Part shown: piece after piece, positions 23,890-27,131 of the stretch | Layout of the letters: each line of letters starts with the position of its first letter | Numbering within the stretch: the first letter of the stretch is position 1 | Source of the DNA: Arthrobacter gandavensis | GTDB taxonomy: Bacteria > Actinomycetota > Actinomycetes > Actinomycetales > Micrococcaceae | Length of the DNA: 64,000 bases | Direction: 5' to 3' | NCBI RefSeq assembly: GCF_015355785.1 | Contig: NZ_JADKYW010000003.1 | Location: 666,796 to 730,795, forward strand | The notes under the pieces: generated by a model | The model's input: the letters and a program-made list of their open reading frames with translations, nothing else | Told to the model about the DNA's origin: nothing | The model's database searches: none | Made by a program: the position numbers and the translations under genes

Positions 23890-23898
23890 CGAAGGCTG

Positions 23899-24546
23899 TT
23901 ACCCGCGCATCGCGGCGTACACAACGTAGTTGTCATCGAACGTTCCCGTCGCGGGGTCGAAACCGTCGCAGGTGATCAGCCGCAGCTCCGCGCCGGCGGT
24001 ATTTCCGTAAACCTCCAGGGTAGGAAAACTGTCCTTGCCGTACTGTTCGGCCCGTTCAACCGTGAACTGCACGGTGGTTCCGTCCTGCCGTCCCACCTCC
24101 ACGACGTCCCCGGGCACCAGGGAGCGCAGGTCCGCGAAGACGCCCGGGCCACCGCCGGTAGCGTTCACATGCCCCAGGAGTACCGCCGGGCCGGGCTGGC
24201 CCGGGGCCGGCGAGCCCGAATACCAGCTGGCCGGAGCTCCCGGGCCTTCCGGCGGAACTTCCAGGGAGCCGTCCTCGCGGAGTCCCAGATGCAGCAGGTC
24301 GCCCTGCGTTCCAGTGGCCGGAATCGCAAGGCTCAGCGGAAGTGGAACCGGTTCGGGAGTTACCGCCCCGGTGCCGGACGGTGCCGGCGCGGGAACAGCT
24401 GCCGCGGACGACGGCGCAGCGGAGGACGCTGAATCCGGTGCCGGGGCCGGGGCCGCCGAGCAGCCACCCAGCACCAGCAACAGGGACACCGCGCAGGAGA
24501 TGAGTCCTGCGCGGTGTCCGCTGTGGATTGCCTGGTGCTTAGCCAC
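23899..24546 (-). CDS. Class F sortase with lipoprotein-type signal
   Basis: 215 residues. A GTG start (24546) overlaps the upstream stop by 8 nt. The N-terminus is a lipoprotein signal ending in LGGC, then a Ala/Pro/Ser linker, then a sortase barrel with the catalytic His in LLGHVNATG and Cys in LRLITCDG, and a C-terminal FDDNYVVYA strand. It would act outside the membrane, covalently anchoring surface proteins. Its overlap with the CHRD-like gene suggests that this is its substrate. After the Cys the sequence reads DPATGTFDDN, with Thr roughly where class F enzymes usually have the catalytic Arg; this needs alignment. Confidence 0.83.
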   Translation of the reverse strand: MAKHQAIHSGHRAGLISCAVSLLLVLGGCSAAPAPAPDSASSAAPSSAAAVPAPAPSGTGAVTPEPVPLPLSLAIPATGTQGDLLHLGLREDGSLEVPPEGPGAPASWYSGSPAPGQPGPAVLLGHVNATGGGPGVFADLRSLVPGDVVEVGRQDGTTVQFTVERAEQYGKDSFPTLEVYGNTAGAELRLITCDGFDPATGTFDDNYVVYAAMRG

Positions 24547-25321
24547 GGGCGCGGCGGCGGGCCAACATGGCTCCGGCCAGGGCCAGCACTCCGGCACCTG
24601 CGCCTGCTGCTGCCAGGGTGGTTCCGTCTACCGCGCCGGCGCCGGTGGCGGTTTCGACGCCGGTGTCAGCACCGCCCTCAGGCATGGCACCCATCTGGGA
24701 GACCGCAACGGTGCCGCAAGCTGCCGGGAGGGTGGCTGCGGCAGGCAGGGACGGGTCCAGGTCTGACATCTTGGCCGCTGCTGCCTCCGGCATCTTCGAG
24801 GGATCCACGCCGTGGACCACAACTACTGCCGTACCGTTCTCGAGCGACTCGGCGGTCTCCGGGTTCACTTCGAAGGTCCGCTCGTAGTTGTACGCAGATC
24901 CGCCCGGGAAACGCTCTACGGCCAGGCCTGAGTCAGCGCTGGTGTCCCCTTCCGTGGTGAGCGAGGTACCGATGTGTCCGTAGAACGGGTGCCCCTCGGT
25001 GGTGTTGACGACGCCGTCGCCGTCGGTATCCGCGTCCATGCCGGGGCAGACGCCCTGCGCGGCAATGTGGATGTGCTGGGCGTGGGGGAAGGGTCCGTCC
25101 ATGAAGGTCTCTGCCGCGCCGGTAACGTTGACCGTCACTTTGGCTTCGGTCCCGTGCACCTCCACCATTGCCTGACCGGTGGTGCCCGAATTGTTCAAGC
25201 TGTTCAGGGTTGCCTGGCCGGACCATGAATCCGGTCCGTGGGCAAGCGCCGGAGTTGTCGAGAGTGCCAGGGCGCCAAGGGCAAGGGTGGGAACGGCGAG
25301 GAGCCGCAGCTTTGTATTCAT
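24539..25321 (-). CDS. Secreted CHRD-like surface protein with C-terminal anchor
   Basis: 260 residues. A Sec signal peptide (LALGALALSTTPALAHG) precedes a CHRD-like domain: SGQATLNSLNNSGTTG, FPHAQHIHIAAQG, FYGHIGTSLTTEG. A DADTDGDGVVNTTEG loop resembles a calcium-binding type-3 repeat. The C-terminus has a hydrophobic helix followed by RRRARG, the layout of a sortase substrate. No LPXTG is present; the nearest candidate is GGADTG or MPEGG just before the helix. AAGGAAA precedes ATG 25321. A SigK-like promoter lies about 45-80 nt upstream. Confidence 0.8.
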   Translation of the reverse strand: MNTKLRLLAVPTLALGALALSTTPALAHGPDSWSGQATLNSLNNSGTTGQAMVEVHGTEAKVTVNVTGAAETFMDGPFPHAQHIHIAAQGVCPGMDADTDGDGVVNTTEGHPFYGHIGTSLTTEGDTSADSGLAVERFPGGSAYNYERTFEVNPETAESLENGTAVVVVHGVDPSKMPEAAAAKMSDLDPSLPAAATLPAACGTVAVSQMGAMPEGGADTGVETATGAGAVDGTTLAAAGAGAGVLALAGAMLARRRARG

Positions 25322-25373
25322 GATCGGTTTCCTTCGTCTGATGAGTCTGCAAATCGGTGTGAATGCAAAGGGA

Positions 25374-25400
25374 GTTCGGAGCCGCGCAGCATCCGGATGG
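25374..25400 (-). promoter_or_regulatory. SigK-like ECF promoter for the CHRD/sortase operon
   Basis: On the minus strand CCATCC (25400-25395) is followed after 15 nt by CCGAAC (25379-25374). From memory, the mycobacterial SigK consensus is CCATCC ... CCGAAT with a slightly longer spacer. sigK itself is divergent from this promoter, and the start codon is about 53 nt downstream of the -10 element. Confidence 0.55.
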
Positions 25401-25560
25401 GTCCGTTTCAGAAAAACTTTTGCCGGCCGGGTGCGTAGCGGAACCGGCTGGCACAGCGGCCTCCCGATATGGCAGAGTTCAGGTCCTGAGCGCGTCTGCT
25501 GACCCCGTAGCGGATGCCGCCGCCGATAGGGCCGTCGAAAGGGATGGGCAGTGCAAGCCG

Positions 25561-26166
25561 ATGACTGAGCCGGGTACAGCGCCGGGCGACCAGTACGGCG
25601 TCCCCCTCATGGGCCGGACCGCTGTGGATCTGGCCGGCCTGGTGAGCCGCAGCGCGGGCGGAGACGAAACCGCCTTTGCGGACCTGTACGACGCCACGTC
25701 CGCCAGGGTCTACGGTTTAGCAGTACGGATAACCCGTTCTCCTGAAATCGCCGCCGAGGTGGTACAGGAGGTCTACCTGATGGCCTGGGAACAGTCGGCG
25801 CGTTTCGCCCCGTCCCGGGGATCGGTCATGGGCTGGCTCTGCACCATGGCCCATCGGAGGGCGGTGGACCGGGTTCGCCAGGTTGCCAGTGAACGGACCC
25901 GGGACCAGACGTATCAGGATCAGCGCCCAACGACGGCGGCGGACCAAACCTGGGAGGAGGTGGAGCAGTCCATGGCTGCCCAGGAAGTGCGGAACGGGCT
26001 GGGAACGCTCAGCCCGCTCCAGCGCGAGGCGGTTGCCCTGGCGTATTACGGCGGGTGCACCCACCAGGAGGTTGCCAGGGCGCTGGATATCCCGCTGGGG
26101 ACCGCGAAAGCCCGGATTCGGGACGGATTGAACAGCCTGAGATCGGCTCTGGGGGGACGGCGATGA
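25561..26166 (+). CDS. sigK: ECF sigma factor SigK
   Basis: 201 residues with sigma-70 region 2 (FADLYDATSARVYGLAVRIT; AAEVVQEVYLMAWEQ; SVMGWLCTMAHRRAVDRVR) and region 4 (LSPLQREAVALAYYGGCTHQEVARAL followed by IPLGTAKARIRDGL). The sequence and the overlapping RskA-type gene identify SigK. ATG 25561 gives the usual length; its ribosome site is weak. It is divergent from the CHRD-sortase operon, which it probably activates. In Mycobacterium tuberculosis, SigK controls the secreted proteins Mpt70/Mpt83; here the neighbouring exported protein is CHRD-like instead. Confidence 0.9.
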   Translation: MTEPGTAPGDQYGVPLMGRTAVDLAGLVSRSAGGDETAFADLYDATSARVYGLAVRITRSPEIAAEVVQEVYLMAWEQSARFAPSRGSVMGWLCTMAHRRAVDRVRQVASERTRDQTYQDQRPTTAADQTWEEVEQSMAAQEVRNGLGTLSPLQREAVALAYYGGCTHQEVARALDIPLGTAKARIRDGLNSLRSALGGRR

Positions 26167-26954
26167 ACGATCAGTATCCCGGCAGCGGGGTTCACGAACT
26201 GGCTCCGCTTTCTGCCATTGATGCCCTGGATCCGGCCGAGCGGTCGGCCTTCGAAGAACACCTTGCCGGCTGCGCCCGCTGCCGCTCCGAGGTCGCGGAC
26301 TTCGCTGAGGTGTCGGCGCATCTTGCCGCCGGAGCCGAGCAGGAGCCTCCCGCGGAGCTGCGCTCTTCAGTGCTCGCGTCCATTCACGGCACCCGTCCGG
26401 CTCCCGGCCCCCGCAAGCAGCCGGCTGACCACACCCGGCCCCTCGATGTCAGCGGCAGGGACCATGCAGCGCCGGCGGATGCGCCCATCCCCCTCCATCG
26501 CCGACGTCGCCGGGTGCTGCTGGCCGCCGCAGCGGCAGCCCTGCTGCTGCCGGCCGCAGGCCTGGCCGGGTGGGCCCTGGGCATACAGTCGGAGCAGGGC
26601 CAGCAGCAGCAGGCGCAGCAGCAGTCGCGCGAAGACCGCCTCCTTGCCGCTGCGGACCTCTCGGTTCAGCGCCTGGACGTGAACGGGCAGCAGTCGACCC
26701 TCCTCGTCTCGGAACAGGAGGACGCTGCCCTGTTCCTGGCCGGGGACCTCCCCGATCCCGGTGCGGACCGCGAGTACCAGCTGTGGCTGCTGGAAGACGA
26801 CACCCCCGTCCCCGACGTGCACTTTGGCGGCGGGGCAGTCCGGGTGTGGCTCAGCGGTGACGTCTCGCGTGCCGGAACAGTGGCACTGACCATTGAACCG
26901 GCCGGCGGCTCGACGACGCCCACCTTTCCCGTGGTGGCCGCAGCGGAAATTTAG
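26163..26954 (+). CDS. rskA: Anti-sigma-K factor RskA
   Basis: 263 residues, starting in a 4-nt ATGA overlap with sigK. The cytoplasmic part carries a zinc anti-sigma motif, HLAGCARC (Hx3CxxC). One membrane helix follows (LLAAAAAALLLPAAGLAGWALG), then a Gln-rich stretch and an extracytoplasmic RskA domain (ALFLAGDLPDPGADREYQLWLL...VALTIEPAGGS). It would hold SigK inactive until regulated proteolysis. This is the standard sigK-rskA arrangement. Confidence 0.92.
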   Translation: MNDQYPGSGVHELAPLSAIDALDPAERSAFEEHLAGCARCRSEVADFAEVSAHLAAGAEQEPPAELRSSVLASIHGTRPAPGPRKQPADHTRPLDVSGRDHAAPADAPIPLHRRRRRVLLAAAAAALLLPAAGLAGWALGIQSEQGQQQQAQQQSREDRLLAAADLSVQRLDVNGQQSTLLVSEQEDAALFLAGDLPDPGADREYQLWLLEDDTPVPDVHFGGGAVRVWLSGDVSRAGTVALTIEPAGGSTTPTFPVVAAAEI

Positions 26955-27131
26955 TGTCAGGCATGCGCCGTAGTCCTTGCGGCGCAGTTCCTCCCGGAAA
27001 CAATGCCGAAGATTTCAGCCTTAGTGGGGAGGACTGAACGGCATCCTGCGGCTAGGCTGGCTTGGTCATGCGCCGTCGGATCCTGCAGCCGCCGGCACTC
27101 AACCGCATCGCAGACACTTATGAGGGGAATT

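Follow-up and report, generated by a model that had tools for sequence, protein, structure and literature searches.

Within a window of 64,000 nucleotides of Arthrobacter gandavensis (the whole stretch of DNA analysed here, contig NZ_JADKYW010000003.1, forward-strand positions 666,796 to 730,795), a four-gene locus at positions 23899–26954 carries sigK, encoding an extracytoplasmic function (ECF) sigma factor, and rskA, encoding a membrane anti-sigma factor, divergent from a gene pair for an exported CHRD-like protein and a class F-type sortase. Comparison with related loci makes it quite likely that this is a SigK-RskA cassette with an exchanged output, in which SigK would drive the CHRD-like protein together with a sortase that would anchor it to the wall. 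The locus links the stimuli of SigK-RskA, described as obscure in one account (PMC9861118), with the role of class F sortases, stated as unknown in another (mBio 2026, PMC13251363), and for a class F-type sortase it points to a likely inducer and a likely substrate as well as to a motif. The role of such a sortase becomes testable, in bacteria suited to work in an ordinary laboratory.

In the mechanism that we propose, RskA, with its HxxxCxxC anti-sigma domain, single span and outer RskA_C domain, would hold SigK until an outside signal leads to inactivation or proteolysis of RskA. The freed SigK would then transcribe from the element CCATCC-N15-CCGAAC, giving a single transcript that covers both the CHRD-like gene and the sortase gene. 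Once exported, the CHRD-like protein would be retained by its C-terminal helix, and the neighbouring sortase, tethered through a lipidated cysteine, would cut the sequence GGADTG between T and G and join the cut protein covalently to a wall precursor. In this genus, the CHRD-sortase pair would fill the position that an Mpt83-like fasciclin lipoprotein has in the classical cassette.

The divergent locus and its promoter element

As the first-pass annotation had described, the four genes, their divergent orientation, the overlap of 8 nucleotides (nt) and the element facing the operon are all present. On the plus strand, sigK spans approximately 25561–26166, with an uncertain start at the ATG of either 25561 or 25609, and overlaps rskA (26163–26954) by ATGA, coupling the RskA-type anti-sigma factor translationally to sigK. 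On the minus strand lie the CHRD-like gene (24539–25321), whose product of 260 amino acids (aa) comprises a signal peptide, a beta domain resembling superoxide dismutase (SOD; approximately aa 31–210) and a C-terminal anchor, and the sortase gene (23899–24546, 215 aa), whose GTG start at 24546 falls inside the end of the CHRD-like frame; their overlap, GTGGCTAA (24546–24539, minus strand), ends with the CHRD-like stop TAA at 24541–24539. The element CCATCC GGATGCTGCGCGGCT CCGAAC (25374–25400, minus strand), which we take to match the SigK consensus, faces this pair and ends 52 nt before the CHRD-like ATG; a literature search for SigK together with CCATCC returned only unrelated papers.

We compared the upstream regions of CHRD loci from a scan of named genomes (the best 80 of 222 confirmed loci), allowing a spacer of N15–16 within 160 nt upstream; 78 loci were usable and two had too short an upstream region. 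Of the 78, 48 carry the element with no more than one mismatch; the spacer is 15 in 46 of these 48, and the median distance to the CHRD start is 58. None of sixty permuted hexamer pairs matched more than 4 loci (mean 0.2), and shuffles under a dinucleotide model gave approximately 0.2, which rules out a chance match, and the count agrees with a prior scan of 109 partly redundant CHRD loci. The same element precedes genes for Mpt83-like fasciclins, several of which adjoin sigK: among 30 loci supplied, one of them too short, 17 of the 29 usable ones have it within one mismatch, where shuffles give 0.4 and none of the 25 permuted controls exceeds 1, and it stands before the fasciclin gene at one mismatch in all eight fasciclin genomes of the genus. 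With two mismatches the fasciclin count rises to 27 of 29, but permuted controls then reach up to 15; we therefore regard that count as weak evidence and use only the one-mismatch count. In the genome of the window itself, a degenerate form of the element has 11 matches, among which only the CHRD site directly precedes the start of an exported protein, judged from the listing of open reading frames alone and with three sites (L120, L123 and L124) ambiguous. The SigK regulon of this genome may therefore be a single operon.

Co-occurrence points in the same direction. Across 99 genomes, that of the window included, a SigK-like gene (E ≤ 1e-30, a threshold that may also admit other ECF factors) was present in 34 of 34 CHRD-positive and 33 of 65 CHRD-negative genomes (Fisher p 4e-8), and in 40 of 42 genomes with and 27 of 57 without fasciclin; such p-values are only indicative, since the genomes share descent and independence is overstated. 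CHRD at 75% identity or more and SigK at 68% or more single out one and the same set of 17 genomes; these thresholds were chosen post hoc. These results bear on the possibility that another ECF factor chiefly reads the element, sigK-rskA being a mere neighbour with no control of the pair. Related ECF factors can indeed have -35 and -10 elements in common, and 57 of the 78 loci have no SigK-like match in the locus (the element is present within one mismatch in 34 of these and in 14 of the 21 others). We nonetheless consider this explanation unlikely: close CHRD and close SigK share their genomes, every CHRD-positive genome has a SigK-like gene, and the same element stands before fasciclin genes, several of them beside SigK. 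SigK probably switches on the CHRD-sortase pair, and the SigK-type control of the CHRD promoter suggested by the first-pass annotation is thus favoured by comparison.

Within the genus (29 genomes), 16 genomes have the CHRD block, eight a fasciclin gene, five neither and none both (p 3e-4); one of the fasciclin genomes (G013) has a distant CHRD gene, without a close SigK. Across the 99 genomes as a whole, 13 have both CHRD and fasciclin and the two occur independently (p 0.67), which confines the exclusion to this genus. The genome of the window has no fasciclin match, which, together with the exclusion within the genus, agrees with the earlier claim of an output other than Mpt70/Mpt83. Moreover, a congener (G024) has an empty site, in which window positions 23895–27051 are replaced by 98 bp and the aligned flanks end at 23894 and resume at 27052. 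Taken with the SigK tree described below, the promoter, the co-occurrence and the empty site suggest a single promoter class whose outputs can be exchanged, where the sigma/anti-sigma pair apparently retains its promoter element while the surface output is swapped.

The layout itself is variable. Conservation of the four-gene block across Micrococcaceae, proposed earlier as a check, did not hold as a general feature of the family: a divergent SigK-like gene lies within 1.2 kb of CHRD in just 14 of the 80 loci, from Arthrobacter, Kocuria, Rothia and one Pseudarthrobacter bin. The latter has the window layout, but its SigK falls outside the main Arthrobacter/Kocuria/Rothia clade, and in Arthrobacter wenxiniae fasciclin-sigK-rskA is divergent from CHRD-sortase, with the fasciclin gene in between. 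All four genes are also present in Arthrobacter citreus DSM 20133 (locus L035). In one further locus (L197, genome G016), sigK-rskA lies at the opposite side of a GNAT gene relative to the window, the block seemingly being inverted or moved, and in two loci of another family of the order (L031 and L156, genome G070) sigK-rskA is convergent with sortase-CHRD.

The product of sigK narrowly misses the cut-off of PRK09646 (SigK; 221.4 against 226 bits), which is still its best-scoring NCBIfam model, and its closest solved relative is SigK in 4nqw (E 3.7e-38). In a tree of 49 rows, made by a quick method and containing 17 open forks and some very long branches, the window SigK falls among fasciclin-linked SigK factors; a CHRD-linked clade of 21 rows (SH-aLRT 100), from Arthrobacter, Kocuria and Rothia, is nested among fasciclin-linked rows, with further CHRD linkages elsewhere. 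RskA passes RskA_C (76.1 against 29.4 bits), and motif and hydropathy place HxxxCxxC at aa 33–40 and one predicted membrane span at approximately aa 118–136. At the positions of Cys133 and Cys183 of Mycobacterium tuberculosis SigK (numbering by offset), the window protein has Gly and Ala; the two cysteines have been tied to the activity of the M. tuberculosis factor and occur in 56% of ECF19, and hence are not strictly defining (PMC7509140). As to the signal, light induces the mpt83/mpt70 homologues of M. kansasii (PMC9861118), and a fasciclin gene is among those raised under photooxidative stress in Rhodobacter sphaeroides (PMC7074977); these hints from other organisms would be compatible with light or singlet oxygen.

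The C-terminal motif and the neighbouring sortase

A related sortase gene lies just downstream of CHRD in 66 of the 80 named loci, as expected from the adjacent, dedicated enzyme proposed earlier; three further loci are at a contig edge. In Kocuria rosea, a single locus (L044, 582–9003) holds three substrate-sortase pairs and then sigK-rskA, the two other substrates having Excalibur domains and DTG tails. The C-terminal anchor assigned to the CHRD-like protein is present as well, with its motif now corrected to GGADTG (aa 216–221; 24659–24676, minus strand), after which come a hydrophobic stretch and RRRARG. In an alignment of 120 rows, which comprises the window protein and its closest homologues only, the motif is near-invariant at approximately 40 residues from the end while the remaining tail drifts: G221 is kept in 120 rows, T220 in 119, D219 in 112 and [DE]TG in 114. 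No LPXTG-like pentapeptide occurs in the last 60 residues of any of the 120 rows, which rules out LPXTG anchoring of this family. An HxxHxH pattern retrieved 15 more distant CHRD proteins, and these keep T-G. The curated GVDTG_CTERM model (NF058571) scores the window protein clearly below its cut-off (19.6 against 29 bits), matches 22 of 25 CHRD family members at E ≤ 1 and is passed by two homologues (P0098, 41.6; P0100, 40.2); another relative (P0050) passes the NCBIfam model for NPXTG-anchored proteins instead (25.7 against 23.5). The literature searched contained no paper joining GVDTG and sortase.

The sortase passes the Pfam model Sortase (73.6 against 26.6 bits) and narrowly misses the class F model NF033748 (157.6 against 166), which is nevertheless its nearest NCBIfam family; a congeneric CHRD-linked copy (G002) exceeds that cut-off (177.4). 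A lipobox (...LVLGGC) and a Pro/Ala-rich linker precede a sortase domain with the catalytic residues His126 and Cys193, and the best matches of its AlphaFold2 (AF2) model in the Protein Data Bank are sortases. Alignment places Asn206 where an active-site Arg is usual; because each of the 30 aligned class F-type sortases has Asn at this position, the exchange is a family trait. Among the best 120 homologues, 118 have TCDG and Asn-Tyr in place of the usual Arg, and a loose lipobox pattern fits the N-terminal region of 104 of the 107 longer ones; some distant actinobacterial copies apparently have, by eye, a membrane helix instead. The lipobox in the sortase and its homologues would thus imply a lipid-anchored enzyme, of which a limited look at the literature met no description. 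No solved class F structure was found when sought by sequence.

More broadly, class F sortases gave 115 matches in 56 of the 99 genomes. We examined 70 loci (30 from the search output and 40 hand-picked to exclude CHRD pairs), comprising 72 sortase frames with two sortases counted twice. An anchored protein, called by a simple hydropathy rule, precedes 67 of the 72 frames; 38 of these proteins end in PxG..xTG, 20 in SPxxV and nine in other tails, some of the nine, plus an odd one elsewhere, being possibly spurious frames. Within one mismatch, the promoter element was found before four of nine CHRD substrates, 3 of 29 other xTG proteins, 1 of 20 SPxxV proteins and none of nine other anchored proteins; within two mismatches, these counts were 9/9, 7/29, 1/20 and 1/9, respectively. 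The class F-type sortases of these loci (L223–L292) form two groups by the preceding protein's tail, PxG..xTG or SPxxV, and the sortase score tends to follow the motif. The genome of the window also holds a second cassette (L003, G000:C9:726560-729976), in which co-oriented genes encode a C-terminally anchored DUF4397 protein, another class F-type sortase, an ECF sigma factor and an anti-sigma factor of the RskA_C kind.

An alternative to wall anchoring is that the CHRD-like protein remains tail-anchored in the membrane, with the sortase inactive or serving other proteins. It would fit the missing LPXTG motif, the Asn in place of the canonical Arg and the account of class F sortases that describes their roles as unknown and reports no visible phenotype for a quadruple Actinoplanes mutant; the same account suggests two class F neighbours without a pentapeptide as possible substrates (PMC13251363). 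We judge it improbable, as it sits poorly with a motif that stays near-invariant amid a drifting tail and keeps T-G in distant homologues, with a sortase gene that travels with its substrate gene, three times in the one Kocuria locus, and with an Asn common to the family.

Besides the null phenotype, several points weigh against a SigK-driven and sortase-anchored output. The window proteins do not reach the curated cut-offs for SigK, class F sortase, CHRD or GVDTG_CTERM. On the promoter side, 30 of the 78 CHRD loci have two or more mismatches to the element, the genome of the window has just 11 degenerate matches against 3 for a reversed-pattern control, and the window sigK has no upstream element within two mismatches, unlike several relatives, so that autoregulation was rejected here; the breadth of the SigK-like threshold and the shared descent of the genomes also count here. 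On the anchoring side, eight of the 80 CHRD loci have no adjacent sortase (one of them, L097, solely from a long overlap) and three have it only upstream, and the D of DTG may be Q, E or A in distant relatives. Finally, because both activity-linked cysteines of SigK are replaced, the trigger may differ from that in M. tuberculosis.

The CHRD-like domain and its putative metal site

The window protein scores clearly below the cut-off of Pfam CHRD (PF07452; 12.7 against 24.1 bits), and 21 of 25 family members match this model at E ≤ 1 (best 3.4e-4); CHRD-like proteins are common, with at least 1309 matches among the 8000 best candidates scored. As curated cut-offs were missed, the terms "CHRD-like" and "class F-type" are appropriate: of the first-pass claim of a CHRD-like protein with a class F sortase, export, the C-terminal anchor and the sortase domain stand, the CHRD and NF033748 assignments fall short, and models of the domain are SOD-like. 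Indeed, the AF2 model, compared by Foldseek/VIA, adopts a Cu,Zn-SOD fold, with Candida albicans SOD5 (5kbl) as the first Foldseek match. His83, His85 and His170, together with Cys92 and Cys202, are kept in 120 of 120 rows, and by motif the three histidines correspond to SOD copper ligands and are putative copper ligands here. A full SOD catalytic site has four copper histidines and an active-site Arg; the bridging His and the Arg have no evident match. Profile comparison of the CHRD-like family with three SODs was not significant (E 0.099, probability 0.6%); we therefore claim only a fold match. When solved structures were searched with a profile of the family, no SOD came up at E ≤ 10, and most matches were weak ones of EF-hand type in the Asp-rich loop; a Pfam scan of family members gave no Sod_Cu match.

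It is conceivable, if somewhat doubtful, that the pair handles surface copper or oxidative stress and is induced by metals or oxidants, which would be compatible with the SigK-driven, wall-anchored output and would name its function. The invariant His and Cys residues on a Cu,Zn-SOD fold favour this idea, as do the absence of Sod_Cu from the genome of the window (it matches in only 4 of the 99 genomes searched) and the neighbours of the 80 CHRD loci, among which are a His-rich lipoprotein cluster (35), cupredoxin-like proteins (13) and P-type ATPases (9). The insignificant SOD profile comparison, the missing Sod_Cu matches, the lack of an evident bridging His and active-site Arg, and the position of these neighbours outside the window block argue against it. 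The His-rich cluster is found in one locus at L064:7031-7705, an example without a Pfam match, and in 34 other Arthrobacter-type loci. In its fullest and more tentative form, our proposal is that the SigK-RskA of Arthrobacter and Kocuria might be a dedicated switch for covering the wall with a copper-binding protein derived from SOD, which a class F-type sortase with a lipid anchor would recognise by GG[AV]DTG and attach covalently. If true, this would be a first physiological role for class F-type sortases and one case of a broader scheme that gives every such sortase a single adjacent substrate and a regulator of its own.

Comparison with known systems

Four features are new here: the GGADTG anchor, the lipobox of the sortase, the position of class F-type frames after anchored proteins (67/72) and the SOD-like fold with putative copper histidines. 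The window locus is a variant of the known mpt83-sigK-rskA cassette, with which it shares an ECF SigK with RskA, a SigK-type element before a gene for an exported protein, and the layout (PMC7509140). The output of that cassette is a fasciclin lipoprotein, whereas the window locus has a CHRD/SOD-like protein and an adjacent sortase, and its SigK lacks both activity-linked cysteines. LPXTG is the signal of the class F enzyme of Propionibacterium acnes. Class F sortases, as reported for Actinoplanes (SrtF1-4) and, as cited there, for P. acnes (PMC13251363), are the nearest NCBIfam family; unlike them, the Micrococcaceae copies have a lipobox N-terminus, occur one per adjacent substrate and face a GGADTG-type signal. 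The GVDTG sorting domain (NF058571) has the same C-terminal layout as the window protein, which scores below its cut-off. With the CHRD domain of chordin, the window domain has a SOD-like beta-barrel in common, but the chordin domain is described as lacking metal histidines (PMC13382577), whereas putative ones are found in 120/120 rows of the window family. Copper-only SOD, such as C. albicans SOD5, resembles the modelled domain in its fold and, by motif, in putative copper ligands and disulphide cysteines; in contrast to SOD5, the CHRD-like domain has by motif no equivalent of the bridging His or active-site Arg, and carries a DxDGDG-type loop instead.

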